Of a stretch of 64,000 nucleotides of DNA, positions 26,929 to 34,227 are shown piece by piece; the first letter of the stretch is position 1, and each line of letters begins with the position of its first letter. The DNA is from Aliigemmobacter aestuarii. GTDB taxonomy: Bacteria; Pseudomonadota; Alphaproteobacteria; Rhodobacterales; Rhodobacteraceae. The stretch covers positions 1,116,001-1,180,000 of the forward strand of contig NZ_SSND01000001.1 of NCBI RefSeq assembly GCF_004799285.1. Reading direction: 5' to 3'. The translations under genes and the position numbers were made by a program. The notes under the pieces were generated by a model. It was not told where the DNA came from. It saw only the letters and a program-made list of their open reading frames with translations, and searched no databases.

Positions 26929-27150
26929 TCAGAAGCCCAGACCGGCGTACTTGTTCTTGAACTTCGACACGCGGCCGCCGGTGTCCATCAGCTTGGCCGA
27001 CTGGCCGGTCCAGGCCGGATGCGCCAGCGGGTCGATATCCAGCGCCATCGTGTCGCCCTCGCCGCCCCAGGTCGAACGGGTGCGGAAGGTGGTGCCGTCG
27101 GTCATCTTCACTTCGATGAAGTGATAGTTCGGGTGGATGCCCTCTTTCAT
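26929..27150 (-). CDS. rpmE: 50S ribosomal protein L31
   Basis: 73 residues. It has [10 protein letters not shown] at the start, then [28 protein letters not shown] with the C-terminal [14 protein letters not shown]. There are no cysteines, so it is the zinc-free form. It sits 11 bp after rplS in the same transcript, preceded by AAGGAG. Confidence 0.96.
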
Positions 27151-27161
27151 CGGTCCGCTCC

Positions 27162-27536
27162 TTATTCGTCTTTGGCTTTGTAGTTGGTGACTTCGGCGAT
27201 CCGGGCCGACTTGCCGCGACGCGACCGCAGGTAATAGAGCTTGGCGCGACGCACGCGGCCACGGCGGACCACCTCGATCGAGTCGATGTTCGTCGAATAG
27301 AGCGGGAACACGCGTTCCACGCCTTCGCCGAACGAGATCTTGCGGACGGTGAAGGAGGCCGCGATCGTGTTGCCGCCCTTGCGGCCGATGCAGACGCCTT
27401 CGTAGTTCTGCACGCGGCTGCGCGACCCTTCGGTCACCTTGTAGCCGACGCGGACGGTATCACCGGCCTTGAAGTCCGGGATGGTCTTGCCGAGGGCAGC
27501 GATCTGCTCGGCTTCCAGCTGCGCGATCAGGTTCAT
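27162..27536 (-). CDS. rplS: 50S ribosomal protein L19
   Basis: 124 residues. Typical blocks are [13 protein letters not shown], then [28 protein letters not shown]-like [16 protein letters not shown] and RRAKLYYLR. It binds 23S rRNA at the 30S interface. ATG 27536 is 9 nt after AGGA; the ATG six bases upstream is too close to it. It is separated from trmD by 311 bp with its own promoter, so regulation is at least partly independent of the ffh-trmD operon. Confidence 0.96.
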
Positions 27537-27847
27537 GCGCATGTTCCTTTTTCCAGCTCGCGGTTGTTCCGCGAAGGTGATGCCGCCCCAGAGCTCCTGG
27601 TCTTCGATCGGGTCCCTGCCCTTTCGGGCAAGCCCGCCGGAGTTGGTCCGACGCTTTGCTGTGCCGCCTCCCCGACGACGGCCCGCCGAAGCAGACAGGC
27701 CCATGTCAATGGAATCGGGTCCGAAAGGCATTCCGCCCCGGACCGGGCGCGTATAGGGGGGATGCGGGCGCCGGTCAAGCACCCTTGACCGAAAGGCGGG
27801 ACCGGCGCGTCTTCCCTGCGGCGGGTCGGGGGGATTGCCCGCCCGTC
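27537..27847 (-). other. trmD-rplS intergenic region and rplS leader
   Basis: 311 bp. It carries the rplS promoter (27750-27778) and a predicted leader of about 205 nt before the L19 start. No open frame in it looks like a gene. I see no clear intrinsic terminator after trmD. Confidence 0.6.
27750..27778 (-). promoter_or_regulatory. Promoter of rplS-rpmE
   Basis: Minus strand TTGACC (27773-27778), 17-bp spacer, TATACG (27750-27755). One of the best sigma-70-type matches in the window. Confidence 0.7.
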
Positions 27848-28660
27848 TCAGCCTTTCCGTGCCTGATGCGCCGCCCACAGGTCCGGCCTGCGTTCGCGGG
27901 TCAGCCGTTCGGCCTCGGCGCGGCGCCAGCGGTCAACCTCGGCATGGTTTCCCGACATCAGGACCGGCGGGATCTCGCGCCCTTCCCAGACGGCGGGCCG
28001 GGTGTATTGCGGATGTTCCAGAAGCCCGTGCGAATGGCTTTCCTCTTCGGTCGAGGCCGCGTTGCCCAGAACACCGGGGATCAGCCGCACGGCGGCGTCG
28101 ATCATCGCCTGCGCCGCGATCTCGCCCCCGGTCAGGACGAAGTCGCCCAGGCTGACCTCTTCGACGCCATAGGCATCCAGCACCCGCTGGTCGACGCCCT
28201 CGAACCGGCCGCAGATCATGGTGATGCCCTCGGCTCCGGCCCATTCCCGTGCCTTGGCCTGGGTGAAGGGCACCCCGCGCGGCGACAGGTAGACAACGGG
28301 CCAGCGCGCCCGATCCGGCGGCGTGCCGACCGAGGCCGCATCCAGCGCGCGGGCCATCACATCGGCGCGGATCACCATGCCCGCCCCGCCGCCCGCCGGC
28401 GTGTCGTCAACATTGCGGTGCCGCCCTTCGCCGAAGGGACGCAGCGGGATGGTTTCCAGCCGCCACAGCCCCTGATCCAGCGCCTTGCCCGTCAGCGACA
28501 GGCCGAGGGTGCCGGGAAAGGCATCGGGGAAAAGGGTGATGATGCGCGCGCACCACGCGCCCTTGACCATGCGCGCTTCGGCCATCAGGTCGCGCGGCTT
28601 CAGCGAGGCGGAAATCGACAGCCTGCCGTGGGATCTGGATTTGTCGGGCGTCTCGGACAT
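27848..28660 (-). CDS. trmD: tRNA (guanine-37-N1)-methyltransferase
   Basis: 270 residues. The SPOUT trefoil knot regions are [29 protein letters not shown] and [11 protein letters not shown]. Upstream, [14 protein letters not shown] and [14 protein letters not shown] are diagnostic. It methylates G37 next to the anticodon, preventing frameshifts. About 30 N-terminal residues precede the usual core, as in Rhodobacterales homologues. It lies 10 bp after the sulfotransferase-like gene. Confidence 0.95.
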
Positions 28661-28670
28661 GGCCGCGCTT

Positions 28671-29531
28671 CTAGCGGGTTTCGCCCGCAGCGGAAACGGG
28701 AAACTGGGGGGCCGTGGCGGCAGGAGAATTTTGCAAAAGGGCGTCCTTGCGGGCGCGCAGGATATCCCGTGGCAGGCCTGCGCGGTTCAGCGCCACGAAG
28801 GCCGCGACCAGATCGGGGGAAAGCGCCGGATTGGTCCGGACAGGCGGCTGAAGGCGGTCGAGGTCCGCCGCAGCACAACCGCACAGGGCCAGCAGCGCCC
28901 CGGCCGGGCCCAGCCGATGCGCCGCGGCATCCTCCAGCGCGATGCGGTGGACCGGGGCCGGGGCCACGGCCGTCGCGATCCGGGCCACGACGCCCCCAAG
29001 ATCAGCCGCCGGGCGAAAGGCATTGGCAAAGTCGTCGCGGTCGAGCGTCAGATGCGCGTGTCGCGCCTGCTGGGCATGAAGCGATGCGAGCCAGGGATCG
29101 GCGGCACGGGTCGTGTAGACGAAGGTGCAGGCCGTTCCTTTCCCGAAGGCGTCACCGACCGCCGCATGGAACGCCTGCGCAAGGGGGATCGCCGCACCAT
29201 AGTCGCGCAGGCCCCGCATTCCCGGCATGTGTCCCGCGAAATCCTCGGACGAGATCAGGATCGACTGCCCCCGTGTGATCGGCAGGCTGGCCAGCCAGCC
29301 CGTCGCCATCGCCCGGAAGACCGCAAGATCCAGCGCGTCGCCCGTTTCCGAATGGCGGCGGGCGGCCTCTGTCACCTGCCGCAGGTCGGGGTCGGTCCGC
29401 AGTGTGGCAAGGTGGAACCGGGCGGACAGCGCGGCGCGGTTTTCCTCAAGGCGGGATTGCAGCGCCGTCGTGCCGGTCTTGTGGAAACCGGCATGCAACC
29501 AGACCTGCGCGGGGCGAGGACGCTCAGGCAT
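28671..29531 (-). CDS. Sulfotransferase-like P-loop protein of unknown function
   Basis: 286 residues. HAGFHKTGTTALQ (near residues 12-24) resembles the PAPS-binding loop of sulfotransferases. The downstream 3'-phosphate arginine/serine motif is not obvious, although YTTRAADPWLASL near residue 142 is a candidate. The rest is Ala/Arg-rich without a recognised domain. The ATG at 29531 overlaps the stop of the upstream membrane-protein gene by 8 bp, and trmD follows in 10 bp. Its position inside a translation operon is unexpected for a sulfotransferase; activity is unproven. Confidence 0.7.
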   Translation of the reverse strand: MPERPRPAQVWLHAGFHKTGTTALQSRLEENRAALSARFHLATLRTDPDLRQVTEAARRHSETGDALDLAVFRAMATGWLASLPITRGQSILISSEDFAGHMPGMRGLRDYGAAIPLAQAFHAAVGDAFGKGTACTFVYTTRAADPWLASLHAQQARHAHLTLDRDDFANAFRPAADLGGVVARIATAVAPAPVHRIALEDAAAHRLGPAGALLALCGCAAADLDRLQPPVRTNPALSPDLVAAFVALNRAGLPRDILRARKDALLQNSPAATAPQFPVSAAGETR

Positions 29532-30135
29532 CCGCCGGGGCGGGCCGCCCGCCCGACCCCACAAGCGCCAGCGCCCGCGACACCGTGCGCCGGGCATCCT
29601 CGCGCGCGGCAAAGCGGATCAGGGCGGCGTGAAGTTCGTCAAGGCAGACGTGCTGACGGATCGCCACGACATGGGCGAGGATTTCGGCATCGTCGCTGTT
29701 TTCCGGAAGGGTGTTCAGCTTTTCCACCATGCGTTCGGCGACATGGCGTTCGGCCGCCTGTTCCGGGCGCCAGACAAGGCGCGTCAGCGGCAGGGCAAAG
29801 AAGGACAGGGCCATCACCTGCACAAGCGGCAGATCCAGCCCGATGCCGACAACGCCGACAATGCCGCGACCGATGCCGAACAGGATCGCCACCAGAAGAA
29901 CCTGGCTCAGGATGCGGCCGGTCGCCTGCACCGCGGCGCGCCCGTTGATCCAGTCGCGCCGGGCATGGCGCCAGCCGCGCGGGTCCAGAAGCACGAGCCA
30001 GAAGATCAGGATCGCCGCGAAGGCGGGAACCGCCGCCCAGCCGAACCCTGCCATCCCGGCCAGCAACGGGCCAAGATAGACCAGCGCATTCGCACCCATC
30101 AGAAGCCGCAACCTGTTCTTCACGCCCACGATCAT
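29524..30135 (-). CDS. Hypothetical membrane protein between rimM and trmD
   Basis: 203 residues. About four hydrophobic segments lie in the first half (near 14-32, 35-50, 75-93 and 98-116), with a soluble, mixed-charge C-terminal domain of about 80 residues (AERHVAERMVEKLN onward). I do not recognise the family. GGAAAGGG precedes the ATG. It begins 30 bp after rimM and overlaps the next gene, so it belongs to the rpsP-rimM-trmD operon. Confidence 0.75.
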   Translation of the reverse strand: MIVGVKNRLRLLMGANALVYLGPLLAGMAGFGWAAVPAFAAILIFWLVLLDPRGWRHARRDWINGRAAVQATGRILSQVLLVAILFGIGRGIVGVVGIGLDLPLVQVMALSFFALPLTRLVWRPEQAAERHVAERMVEKLNTLPENSDDAEILAHVVAIRQHVCLDELHAALIRFAAREDARRTVSRALALVGSGGRPAPADA

Positions 30136-30165
30136 GCCCTTTCCAGTCCGGGCACCGCGATCGCC

Positions 30166-30675
30166 TCAGTCCAGCCCTTCCGGGATGTCGGCAACGATGC
30201 GGCCCGCCTTCAGATCCACGGTGGGCACGTTGGCCAGCGTGAAGGGCAGAAGTATGGCGGATTTTCGACCGGGGGCGAAAATTTCAAGGATGTCGCCCGC
30301 CCCGTGGTTGTAGACGGCGCGGACGGTGCCGATGGCCGCCCCTCCGGTATCCTGCACCGGAAGGCCGATCAGGTCGGCATGGTAGAATTCGTCATCGGGC
30401 AGCGACGGCAGGCGGTCGCGATCTGCGAAAAGCTGAACCCCGCGCAGCGCATCGGCGGCCTCTTTCGTGGTCACGCCCGAAAGCATGGCGCCGAACCCGC
30501 CGGAAACCGGACGCGTCAGGCGCACGTCAAAAGACCGGCTGCCATCCTCGGTCCAGAGCGGGCCGTAGGCGGCGATCGACTCGGGGTCGGCGCAGAAGGA
30601 TTTCAGGCGCACTTCGCCACGCACGCCGAACGCTCCGGCGATGGCCCCCACACAGACGCGGTCGGCTTTCGGCAT
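30166..30675 (-). CDS. rimM: Ribosome maturation factor RimM
   Basis: 169 residues. The N-terminal domain has [19 protein letters not shown], and the PRC-barrel half has [13 protein letters not shown] and GAGDILEI. It assists 16S rRNA 3'-domain processing with S19. It sits 68 bp after rpsP in the operon. Confidence 0.94.
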
Positions 30676-30743
30676 GGCTTACCCCCGAAGATGGGCGGCG
30701 GGACCCGCAACGGGGCCCCGCGCGCCGGTTGGCAGGGCCGGGA

Positions 30744-31097
30744 TTATTCCTCGGCCGGGGCGGCGGCGCGGGCCGCCTTCTTGGCCGCGCGTTCGGCCAT
30801 CTGCTTGCCCGGAACGGCCTTCTTCGGGTTCGCACGGGTCTTCTTGGCCAGGACGCCCGCGGCTTCGAGGAAGCGCGCGACGCGGTCGGTCGGCTGGGCG
30901 CCGGTGGCCAGCAGTTCCTTGATGCGGTCAAGGTTCATCTTGACGCGGTTCTCGTCGTCCTTGGCCAGCATCGGGTCATAGGTGCCCAGCTTTTCCAGGA
31001 AGCGGCCATCGCGCGGCATGCGGCTGTCGGACAGCACGATGGCGTAATGCGGACGCTTTTTCGAGCCACCACGGGCCAGACGGATCTTCGTTGCCAT
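30744..31097 (-). CDS. rpsP: 30S ribosomal protein S16
   Basis: 117 residues. [20 protein letters not shown] and the [14 protein letters not shown] block are diagnostic. An Ala/Lys-rich extension of about 35 residues follows the 80-residue core, as is usual in alphaproteobacteria. AAAGGAG precedes the ATG. The upstream frame (to 31622) is a shadow of the chorismate mutase and GNAT genes. Confidence 0.96.
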
Positions 31098-31141
31098 TTC
31101 AGTTCTCCTTTTTCGATGGCGTGTAACGGGCCAAGGCCCTG

Positions 31142-31435
31142 TTATTTTTGCAGTTTCTCGTGATGCCTGATGACTTCGGAAATGATGAAGTTCAGGAATT
31201 TCCTGGCGAATTCCGGGTCGAGGTCGGCCTCTCGTGACAGCCGTTCCAGCCGTTCGATCTGCCGCGCCTCGCGCGCCGGGTCGCTGGGGGGCAGGTCGTG
31301 TTCGGCCTTGAGCTTCCCCACCGCCTGCGTGTGCTTGAACCGTTCGGCCAGCGTGTAGACAAGGATCGCGTCCAGCCGGTCGATCGACTCGCGGTGTTCC
31401 TTCAGCAGCGCGGCAGCCTTGGCAACGGCGTCCAT
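31142..31435 (-). CDS. Chorismate mutase (AroQ type)
   Basis: 97 residues, one all-helical AroQ domain. Key positions match: [20 protein letters not shown] with the first catalytic Arg, then [12 protein letters not shown] with Lys, and Glu in REARQIERL. It converts chorismate to prephenate for Phe/Tyr synthesis. ATG 31435 has AAAGGGGA before it; the earlier ATG at 31465 is not needed. It lies between the GNAT gene and rpsP in the ffh operon. Confidence 0.88.
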
Positions 31436-31461
31436 CGCATCCCCTTTCGTGTCTTTTGCGG

Positions 31462-31968
31462 TCATGCCGCCACCCCGCGCAGATCATGGACGATGACCAC
31501 ATCACCGGGGTCGATGCCTGCGCGGGCGGGATCGATCCGCCCGCCCAGACGCAGGCCGAGCGCGATGGAGCGCACGTTGGCCGGGTCGATGATGTTGATG
31601 ATCTCGTCCCAGCCAAGGGCACGGCGCACCCAGCCCATCACGGCGCGCGCGGCTTCCAGCGCGATGCCGCGGCCTTCGGCTGCGGGGGTCACGAACCAGC
31701 CCAGTTCCGGCGCGGGGAAGTCGGCGGCGTGATAGATACCGACCTCGCCGACATAATCCCCACCCATGTCCACCGCGAAGGGGCCGTATCCCATCAACGG
31801 CCATTGCCCGACGTCCGACGCCCATTCGCGCCAAACAGAGGCGCGCGCCTTGGGTCCGCCTTCCCAAACGGAACGGTCCGACGCATAGAACGCGACGCGC
31901 GGTTCGAAATCCGCAAGCCGGGGCATCCGCAGCGTCAACCGTTCGGTATGGAGCGTGGGGGCGATCAT
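31462..31968 (-). CDS. GNAT N-acetyltransferase (RimJ/RimL-like)
   Basis: 168 residues. [17 protein letters not shown] is the characteristic N-terminus of the RimJ/RimL group, and the acetyl-CoA site is [14 protein letters not shown] near residue 97. The stop of ffh overlaps its ATG by 4 bp, so it is translationally coupled to ffh. The acetyl acceptor is unknown. Confidence 0.85.
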
Positions 31969-33473
31969 TTCTTTTTCATCAGCCCCGAAAGGCCCGCAGG
32001 CAGGGTCAGGCCGCCGCGCCCCATGCCGCCCATTCCAGGCATCGGCGGCAGGCCGGCGCCGGCACCGCGCATCGCCTTGGCGGCTTCTTCCAGTTCGGCG
32101 GGCGACATCTTGGACGGGTCCGGCATGCCGCCCTTGCCCATCATCTGCTTGATGGCCTGTTTCATCATGCCACCCTTGCCCATCTTCTTCATCATCTCGG
32201 CCATCTGCTTGTGCTGCTTCAAGAGACGGTTGAGTTCGGCCACATCCAGCCCGGCACCCGCGGCGATGCGTTTCTTCCGGCTGGCGGCCAGCAGATCGGG
32301 GTTCGCGCGTTCCTTCTTGGTCATCGAATTGATCAGCGCGATCTGGCGGCGCAGCATGCGGTCGTCAAAACCGGCCTCTTCGGCCTGCTTTGCCATCTTG
32401 CCCATGCCCGGCAGCATGCCCATCAGGCCCTGCATGCCGCCCATCTTCAGCATCTGTTCCAGCTGCGCCTTCAGGTCGTTCATGTTGAACAGACCCTTCT
32501 GGAAGCGCTTCATCATCCGTTCGGCCTGTTCGGCCTCAAACGTCTCGCGCGCCTTTTCCACCAGGGCCACGATGTCGCCCATGCCCAGGATGCGGCCCGC
32601 GACGCGTTCGGGCTCGAAGGTCTCGATCGCGTCCATCTTCTCGCCCAGGCCGACGAAGCGGATGGGCTTGCCGGTGACGGCGCGCATCGACAGGGCCGCA
32701 CCGCCGCGCCCGTCGCCATCCATCCGCGTCAGCACCACGCCGGAGATGCCGACCTTGCCGTCGAATTCGGTCGCGACGTTCACCGCGTCCTGACCGGTGA
32801 GGCCGTCGACCACCAGAAGCGTTTCACGCGGGCTGGCGATGTCGCGCACCGCCTGAACCTCGTCCATCAACACTTCGTCGATGTGCAGGCGGCCCGCCGT
32901 GTCGAGGAACAGCACGTCATAGCCGCCCATCGCCGCCTGCGTCTTGGCGCGCTTGGCGATCTGGGGGGCCTTTTCGCCCTTCACGATCGGCAGCGTATCC
33001 ACACCGATCTGGGTGCCGAGGATGGCAAGCTGTTCCATCGCGGCGGGGCGGTTGGTGTCGAGGCTGGCCATCAGCACCCGCTTGCCGTTCTTTTCCTTGA
33101 GACGCTTTGCAAGCTTTGCCGTTGTCGTCGTCTTGCCCGAACCCTGCAGGCCCACCATCAGGATCGTCGCGGGCGGGTTGTCGATCTTCAGCGCATCGGC
33201 CGGGCCGTCGCCCGACAGCACATGCACCAGTTCGTCATGCACGATCTTGACGACCTGCTGGCCCGGCGTGACCGACTTGGTCACCGCCTGCCCGGTCGCC
33301 TTCTTCTTCACCGCATTGACGAAATCGCGCGCCACGGGCAGCGAAACGTCGGCCTCAAGCAGCGCCACGCGGACCTCGCGCAGGGCGGTTTCGACATCGG
33401 CCTCGGACAACGCGCCCTGCTTGGTCAGGCGGTCGAAGACTCCACCCAGCCGTTCTGACAGGTTCTCGAACAT
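31965..33473 (-). CDS. ffh: Signal recognition particle protein Ffh
   Basis: 502 residues. The N domain comes first; the G domain has G1 GLQGSGKTT (108-116), DTAGRLHID (D191 onward) and TRMDGDGRGG near 250. The Met-rich M domain (about 305-502) binds 4.5S RNA and signal sequences, and ends in a Gly/Met-rich tail. It targets membrane proteins cotranslationally to FtsY. It leads the ffh-GNAT-chorismate mutase-rpsP-rimM-trmD operon. The 4.5S RNA gene is not in the window. Confidence 0.97.
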   Translation of the reverse strand: MFENLSERLGGVFDRLTKQGALSEADVETALREVRVALLEADVSLPVARDFVNAVKKKATGQAVTKSVTPGQQVVKIVHDELVHVLSGDGPADALKIDNPPATILMVGLQGSGKTTTTAKLAKRLKEKNGKRVLMASLDTNRPAAMEQLAILGTQIGVDTLPIVKGEKAPQIAKRAKTQAAMGGYDVLFLDTAGRLHIDEVLMDEVQAVRDIASPRETLLVVDGLTGQDAVNVATEFDGKVGISGVVLTRMDGDGRGGAALSMRAVTGKPIRFVGLGEKMDAIETFEPERVAGRILGMGDIVALVEKARETFEAEQAERMMKRFQKGLFNMNDLKAQLEQMLKMGGMQGLMGMLPGMGKMAKQAEEAGFDDRMLRRQIALINSMTKKERANPDLLAASRKKRIAAGAGLDVAELNRLLKQHKQMAEMMKKMGKGGMMKQAIKQMMGKGGMPDPSKMSPAELEEAAKAMRGAGAGLPPMPGMGGMGRGGLTLPAGLSGLMKKK

Positions 33474-33633
33474 GTGGCGCCCTTTCGTTGCCGTTGCGGT
33501 TCTGCCGGATATGGGACCGGCGGCGGATCATTGCAAAGGCCAAGGGCACCCGTGGGCGCAACGCGCTGACGGATGGCGATCCCGGCCAATGCCAAGGGAC
33601 CGGAAGCACGGGCCTCCGGGGAATTCAGCGCCG

Positions 33634-33662
33634 CGGATACGCCGACAGGAGGCCGGAGTCAA
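33634..33662 (-). promoter_or_regulatory. Likely promoter of the ffh operon
   Basis: Minus strand TTGACT (33657-33662), 17-bp spacer, TATCCG (33634-33639). It would give a leader of about 150 nt before ffh. Confidence 0.45.
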
Positions 33663-33717
33663 GCGCGGCGGGGCAGGCCCGGAACGCAGGGGCCGGGGAC
33701 GCAGGGGCCGGGTTCGC

Positions 33718-34227
33718 TCAGGCCGTTTCGCCCGTCCGGCCTGCTGCGCCGTCGGTTGCCCCGGCCGGCGCAAGCCATTCGTTCACCCGGACGGCCACAT
33801 CATGCGCGCCCCGCCCCGAGATGTAGACAGTCCGCAGGGGCAGCGTCGATCCGTCCGCCATCTCGAGCGCGGGGCGATGCGTGGACCCGCCCTTGGAGGA
33901 CCGCGAGGTTTCCACCGTCGCGCGGCGCACGGATGATAAAGGATAGCGGCTTTCGGTCTGGCCAAACAACGATGCCTCGCGGATCAGCACGACCCGCGCC
34001 GCCCGGTCCAGAAAGACGATGGTGCGACGCACGAAGGCCCAGAAGGCCAGAAAGCCCAAGCCCCCGCCGACGCCCCCCATCAGCAGGCCGCCTGTCAGGT
34101 CGCCCTGCAGGATGAGTCCAAGGCCAAGCCCCACAAAGATCAGCGTGAACCCCCCGATCATGATCCCCGTGATCCAGGGGCGATCCTCCAGCGTCAGCCT
34201 TTCTGGCGTTGCCTCGCGCAGTTTCAT
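33718..34227 (-). CDS. Hypothetical membrane protein, two helices
   Basis: 169 residues. Two adjacent transmembrane helices (about 21-40 and 44-62; MIGGFTLIFVGLGLGLIL, GLLMGGVGGGLGFLAFWAF) precede a beta-rich cytoplasmic domain with TIVFLDRAARVVLI. The architecture resembles a PH-like membrane domain, but I cannot name it. The ATG at 34227 (MKLREATPERL) is chosen because the longer frame (34374) runs into the LysR gene. Confidence 0.7.
   Translation of the reverse strand: MKLREATPERLTLEDRPWITGIMIGGFTLIFVGLGLGLILQGDLTGGLLMGGVGGGLGFLAFWAFVRRTIVFLDRAARVVLIREASLFGQTESRYPLSSVRRATVETSRSSKGGSTHRPALEMADGSTLPLRTVYISGRGAHDVAVRVNEWLAPAGATDGAAGRTGETA

Follow-up and report, generated by a model that had tools for sequence, protein, structure and literature searches.

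A sulfotransferase-like gene family located between rimM and trmD in the Rhodobacter/Roseobacter family

Analysis of a 64,000-nucleotide stretch of the Aliigemmobacter aestuarii genome (the window) revealed two genes, here called mem and stf, between rimM and trmD, and homologous frames were found in the same interval (the slot) across dozens of other genera. We consider, with a probability of about 0.7, that stf belongs to a subfamily of cytosolic PAPS-dependent sulfotransferases seen in one bacterial family only, that its gene entered the slot once and early and is expressed with the surrounding operon, and that mem occupies the slot independently of it. No description of the slot genes was found in one open-access literature library, as judged from titles and the openings of abstracts.

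On the minus strand the genes are arranged in the order ffh, GNAT-like gene, chorismate-mutase-like gene, rpsP, rimM, mem, stf, trmD and rplS (Table 1). RimM and TrmD were identified by Pfam, and ffh, the GNAT-like and chorismate-mutase-like genes, rpsP and rplS were named by reading their translations. In the window, the GNAT-like and chorismate-mutase-like genes (31142-31968) separate ffh from rpsP, as they do in many of the loci examined in the family. Gene mem is spaced 30 bp from rimM and overlaps stf by 8 bp (29524-29531), and stf is followed by trmD after 10 bp (28661-28670); the coordinates of the open reading frames thus agree with the original prediction of two genes within rimM-trmD with this overlap and this distance to trmD. 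The overlap and the tight spacing suggest that the slot genes may be co-transcribed and translationally coupled; promoter and terminator scans of 27000-34000 gave nothing above chance. If stf is read with the rpsP-rimM-trmD-rplS operon, as appears probable, its level would be set by that operon, and a growth-linked role of the slot genes is possible from their position.

Table 1. Features of the rimM-trmD interval (window coordinates)
Feature	Residues	Position	Strand	Description
rimM		30675-30166	-	Pfam RimM and PRC_RimM; 5' border of slot
mem		30135-29524	-	Open reading frame, ATG start, 203 aa; four predicted membrane helices; homologs in same slot
stf		29531-28671	-	ATG start, 286 aa; sulfotransferase-like; Sulfotransfer_4 match below cut-off, confident model
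stf P-loop HAGFHKTGTT	13-22	29466..29495	-	Predicted 5'-phosphosulfate-binding motif
stf E96	96	29244..29246	-	Candidate catalytic base (putative role); 85/85 slot copies
stf R142-x7-S150	142-150	29082..29108	-	Predicted 3'-phosphate-binding; both residues 85/85
trmD		28660-27848	-	Pfam tRNA_m1G_MT; 3' border of slot

A first single-sequence search of 61 genomes, made before profiles were built, gave 11 genomes with stf and 7 with mem, the own genome included. Among the seven best non-self stf matches, six are beside rimM, five of these being located between rimM and trmD; the copy of G009 follows rimM with trmD not in view, and that of G002 lies elsewhere. In 296 genomes of the family, matches of at least 165 bits were defined as strong, because no profile match lies between 143 and 165 bits. 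All 78 strong stf loci were inspected, 71 of them fetched for classification and seven taken from the earlier loci. Sixty-six (61 fetched, five earlier) are between rimM and trmD, six touch the pair and six (five fetched, one earlier) lie elsewhere. The six touching loci comprise four beside just one of the two genes (three fetched, and one earlier locus beside rimM only) and two fetched loci immediately outside, one 5' of rimM and one 3' of trmD. Strong copies just 3' of trmD were seen in L056:5798-6601 and L143, which are apparently the same genome, and L182 has a strong copy between rpsP and rimM. The neighbours of five strong off-operon copies (L163, L177, L179, L195 and L201) share no pathway by eye; the sixth (G002, L007) was viewed with its nearest frames only.

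Gene mem was found in 34 of the 296 genomes (38 rows), and in all 30 loci that were returned and inspected it lies 3' of rimM: it follows rimM directly in 29 and comes after stf in L219, and 28 of the 30 also show trmD. The conservation of position is borne out by 66 of the 78 strong stf loci, an insertion unique to one strain is ruled out by the occupied slots across the surveyed genomes of the family, and the genes rarely or never occur away from the operon (six of the 78 strong stf loci, none of the 30 inspected mem loci). From named genomes, 80 loci were collected by way of TrmD, ten of them without rimM in reach. In the remaining 70, the slot holds neither gene in 43, mem only in 15 (four of which score just 25-57 bits), both genes in 11 and stf only in one; 32 of the 43 loci with neither gene have no more than 58 bp between the stretches matched as rimM and trmD.

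The core order rpsP-rimM-trmD-rplS is that known in E. coli. A class-wide sample of 241 genomes gave an stf match at 1e-10 in four only, all of the same family. In 55 genomes from outside the family that were searched for TrmD, 28 loci were obtained. In 23 of them rimM is found no more than 1.5 kb upstream of trmD, with a gap of less than 250 bp in 22 and of 914 bp in one; neither stf nor mem was found within reach of trmD in any of the 28. The order outside the family is different, as had been stated, and since rimM and trmD are mostly adjacent outside the family (22/28), the slot genes are to be regarded as a derived trait of the family. A plasmid collection searched at E 1e-5 had no match to stf or mem.

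The stf protein of the window gave a single Pfam signal, Sulfotransfer_4 (PF17784), which at 19.4 bits does not reach the curated threshold of 22.8, and NCBIfam gave no match. Sulfotransfer_4 was nevertheless matched by all 21 aligned stf members (E up to 1, best E 1.2e-6) and is the only Pfam model common to them, the runner-up matching three; NCBIfam gave weak matches only, none to more than three of the 21. The P-loop with the sulfotransferase-like motif FHKTGTT, noticed in the original prediction, was located (HAGFHKTGTT), and the description of stf as a sulfotransferase-like P-loop protein is supported. Comparison of 85 distinct slot copies (87 minus two repeats of the same genome) found H13, G15, E96, R142 and S150 in all of them and K18 in 84, with R in the remaining copy, at a mean pairwise identity of 33% versus 69% for TrmD (67 single-copy loci). 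The K-T-G-T loop agrees with the 5' PAPS-binding element of sulfotransferases and is presumably its counterpart, and R-x7-S, with the spacing known from characterised sulfotransferases, is presumably the 3' PAPS-binding element.

An AlphaFold2 model of stf built from 15 sequences is confident (pLDDT 92). In a VIA-align comparison of the Foldseek candidates the top match is a human heparan sulfate 3-O-sulfotransferase (Z 11.7, rmsd 3.7, 195 residues aligned), and heparan sulfate 3-O-sulfotransferases are the best structural matches (Z 11.7-11.2), with adenylate kinase tying at 11.4; in Foldseek's own ranking a GPN-loop GTPase comes top, with a sulfotransferase in sixth place. Because adenylate kinase ties in Z and Foldseek favours a GTPase, the fold alone cannot tell a sulfotransferase from a P-loop kinase, and the motifs weigh more. 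Searched against solved structures, the single stf sequence had no match and the stf profile matched SgdX2 only (E 0.77). That stf might be a nucleotide kinase-like or a non-catalytic P-loop protein, as the tie with adenylate kinases and the Pfam score under the cut-off could indicate, is unlikely in our judgement, given that Sulfotransfer_4 is the sole model shared by all 21 members and that the nearly invariant P-loop lysine together with the invariant R-x7-S forms the sulfotransferase pattern. A role in phage defence was considered and dropped: with E values up to 1 allowed, PADLOC models matched neither stf nor mem, and PHROGs gave just weak matches to one or two of the 21 stf members each.

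Gene stf is under purifying selection, judging by dN/dS values of 0.17 and 0.24 in two species pairs. APS kinase, the enzyme that makes PAPS, is encoded in the own genome, so that PAPS is presumably available; since 286 of the 296 family genomes have it, its presence is uninformative on PAPS use. One draft genome (G027) has a slot stf with APS kinase not detected. Taken together, stf is most likely a PAPS-dependent sulfotransferase, which would act in the cytosol and move sulfate from PAPS to a small, lipid or glycan acceptor.

For the mem protein of the window, no Pfam or NCBIfam match was found at E up to 5, and 25 relatives gave Pfam matches of single members only; mem belongs to no recognised family in the libraries searched. 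Neither window protein has an NCBIfam match and stf stays below the Pfam cut-off, and within these libraries both genes are indeed unrecognised, as had been stated. Hydropathy peaks of mem fall within residues 24-122 with a break at 54-67, and averaging over 19 residues flags no first helix. A model of the Gemmobacter homolog (L027, 302 aa; pLDDT 89.5, pTM 0.73) has long helices at 2-24, 29-46, 61-92 and 101-117 plus a helical C-terminal part, and together with the hydropathy peaks it fits the earlier description as a four-helix membrane protein. Foldseek of this model found no solved structure at E < 0.001, TPR-like matches (best E 0.35) being dropped, and a sequence search against solved structures gave five unconvincing matches (best E 0.17). 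The window copy is without about 100 C-terminal residues present in most aligned relatives, the family being about 300 aa long; mem would then be a four-helix membrane protein usually carrying a helical C-terminal domain that is largely lost in the window copy. The dN/dS values of mem were 0.28, 0.42 and 0.24 in three species pairs; the values of trmD, with which those of both stf and mem were compared, were 0.08, 0.19 and 0.10.

Whether the two genes are one unit was examined through their co-occurrence. In the 296 family genomes, stf is in or beside the operon in 72, mem is present in 34 and both in 8, as chance predicts (Fisher p = 1), although divergent mem copies may escape the profile. 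Of ten independent pairs on the tree, an average of 1.0 had both traits changing in parallel and 3.2 had them changing in opposite directions, which is not significant. In the 70 loci of named close relatives, mem accompanies 11 of the 12 slot-stf loci (p = 3e-5, kinship uncorrected), and both orders exist, rimM-mem-stf-trmD as in the window and rimM-stf-mem-trmD in Maritimibacter and others. The latter two results would suit a functional unit, such as a cytosolic sulfotransferase whose sulfated product is handled by a partner in the membrane; with 8 of 72 operon-stf genomes carrying mem and no positive link on the tree, we hold such a unit to be improbable. The co-occurrence among named relatives may be explained by shared ancestry. 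As stf and mem are independent across the family, they form no obligate pair, and the reading as one unit is not supported.

Other genes also occupy the slot. Proteins of a third, unnamed family, about 380 aa long and made up of a hydrophobic N-terminus and a further part, are encoded between stf and trmD in L145, L153, L154, L161, L175 and L003; hhalign detected no relation of this family to mem. A weak relative follows trmD (L070:5838-6983). Further occupants are opposite-strand phosphotransferase-like and glycosyltransferase-like genes and VOC/glyoxalase-like genes (L055, L067 and L092; L053 and L182), all named from reading the sequences, and short membrane proteins are tenants as well. 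Such a mixture, and the independent presence of stf and mem in the family sample, would be expected if the rimM-trmD gap were a permissive insertion site for mildly beneficial genes under steady expression, with stf and mem unrelated to translation or to each other. A purely random site, however, would not be expected to contain the majority of the strong members of both families, which are scarce at other places. We give this explanation slightly less than even odds, and the idea of passenger genes remains strong; it concerns why the genes sit there and is compatible with stf being a sulfotransferase.

Weaker stf relatives (66-143 bits; 30 loci, of which 29 were fetched and G283 was left out) were first taken as a control. 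None of the first nine was located at rimM-trmD, and eight were in the succinate dehydrogenase operon. In all, 19 of the 29 are in this operon; stf stands between sdhA and sdhB in 18 of them and follows sdhB in L208, the sdh genes being named from reading translations. The sdhA-stf-sdhB order was seen in L207, L209-L214, L250-L254, L258, L260, L262, L264 and L268, and also in L249 (G004), where the sdh genes are more than 1.5 kb away from stf. Seven proteins of this group were combined into a profile, which gave 30 loci in the 296 genomes, of which 20 are beside sdhA and/or sdhB, six at rimM and four with neither operon in the short flanks; a copy in the sdh operon is thus present in at least 20 of the 296 genomes, the sdh set not being a census. 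Operon stf was commoner in genomes with an sdh copy (12/20 versus 60/276, p = 0.0004, kinship uncorrected). Ten weaker copies are outside both operons, and two of these (L256 and L257) are in an apparent nucleotide-sugar/polysaccharide cluster, which hints at glycan sulfation in the wider superfamily but not by the slot copies. One may speculate that two sulfotransferase lineages became fixed in rimM-trmD and sdhA-sdhB since their output must follow the rates of translation and respiration, the sulfated product or the released PAP acting on growth control or on a translation component; we rate this as quite improbable, a shade below the alternatives called unlikely and improbable above.

On a rimM and TrmD tree of 156 loci, a set enriched for stf and mem loci and not a census, stf requires at least 19 changes and mem at least 17. 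Mantel correlations were 0.23 for stf-trmD, 0.34 for stf-rimM, 0.41 for trmD-rimM and 0.47 for mem-trmD, in each case with none of 2000 permutations as high. These values agree with genes that were inherited at a fixed position, often lost and perhaps at times exchanged. Because the stf-trmD correlation falls below the rimM-trmD value of 0.41, exchange between lineages is possible. Tandem stf pairs inside the slot were seen in nine loci (L144, L148, L151, L155, L158, L159, L162, L194 and L012). On an stf tree of 121 proteins (119 different rows), the rimM-trmD and sdh locations are separated by one change. Against all other rows, which include the five strong off-operon copies and the ten weaker copies located elsewhere, the rimM-trmD group requires four changes and the sdh group three, with at least two in each group forced by well-supported branches. 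A strict single origin of the slot copies without moves therefore does not follow from this tree. Most likely, stf entered the rimM-trmD interval once, early in the family; many lineages would have kept it there, some would have gained a tandem duplicate, others would have lost the gene, and some copies would have moved away.

Chemically, stf is a new branch of a known kind of enzyme, and the link to two core operons is its unusual part: an enzyme family nearly confined to one slot of a ribosome and tRNA maturation operon, with relatives in the succinate dehydrogenase operon and nameless in the libraries searched. The slot genes offer a clean knock-out set for asking whether a position in a core operon carries a function or just steady expression.

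The arrangement can be compared with several known systems. The core gene order is the same as that of the E. coli operon, whereas part of the Rhodobacter/Roseobacter family has extra genes between rimM and trmD. Heparan sulfate 3-O-sulfotransferases and NDST1, the best structural matches, align with the stf model over residues of about 3-241 (Z 11.7 to 10.6), with an identity of 8-11% in these structural alignments. Sulfotransfer_4 proteins and the bacterial proteins generally annotated as 'sulfotransferase family' have the P-loop and the profile match in common with stf; in contrast to them, stf was seen in one bacterial family only in the samples searched, and is mostly fixed in rimM-trmD. 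Its nearest relatives outside the slot are those of the sdhA-sdhB group, which belong to the same bacterial family, are likewise inside a core operon and also have the P-loop K, the E and R-x7-S invariant (seven aligned), as in the slot copies; they differ in the operon that they occupy, one change apart on the tree.
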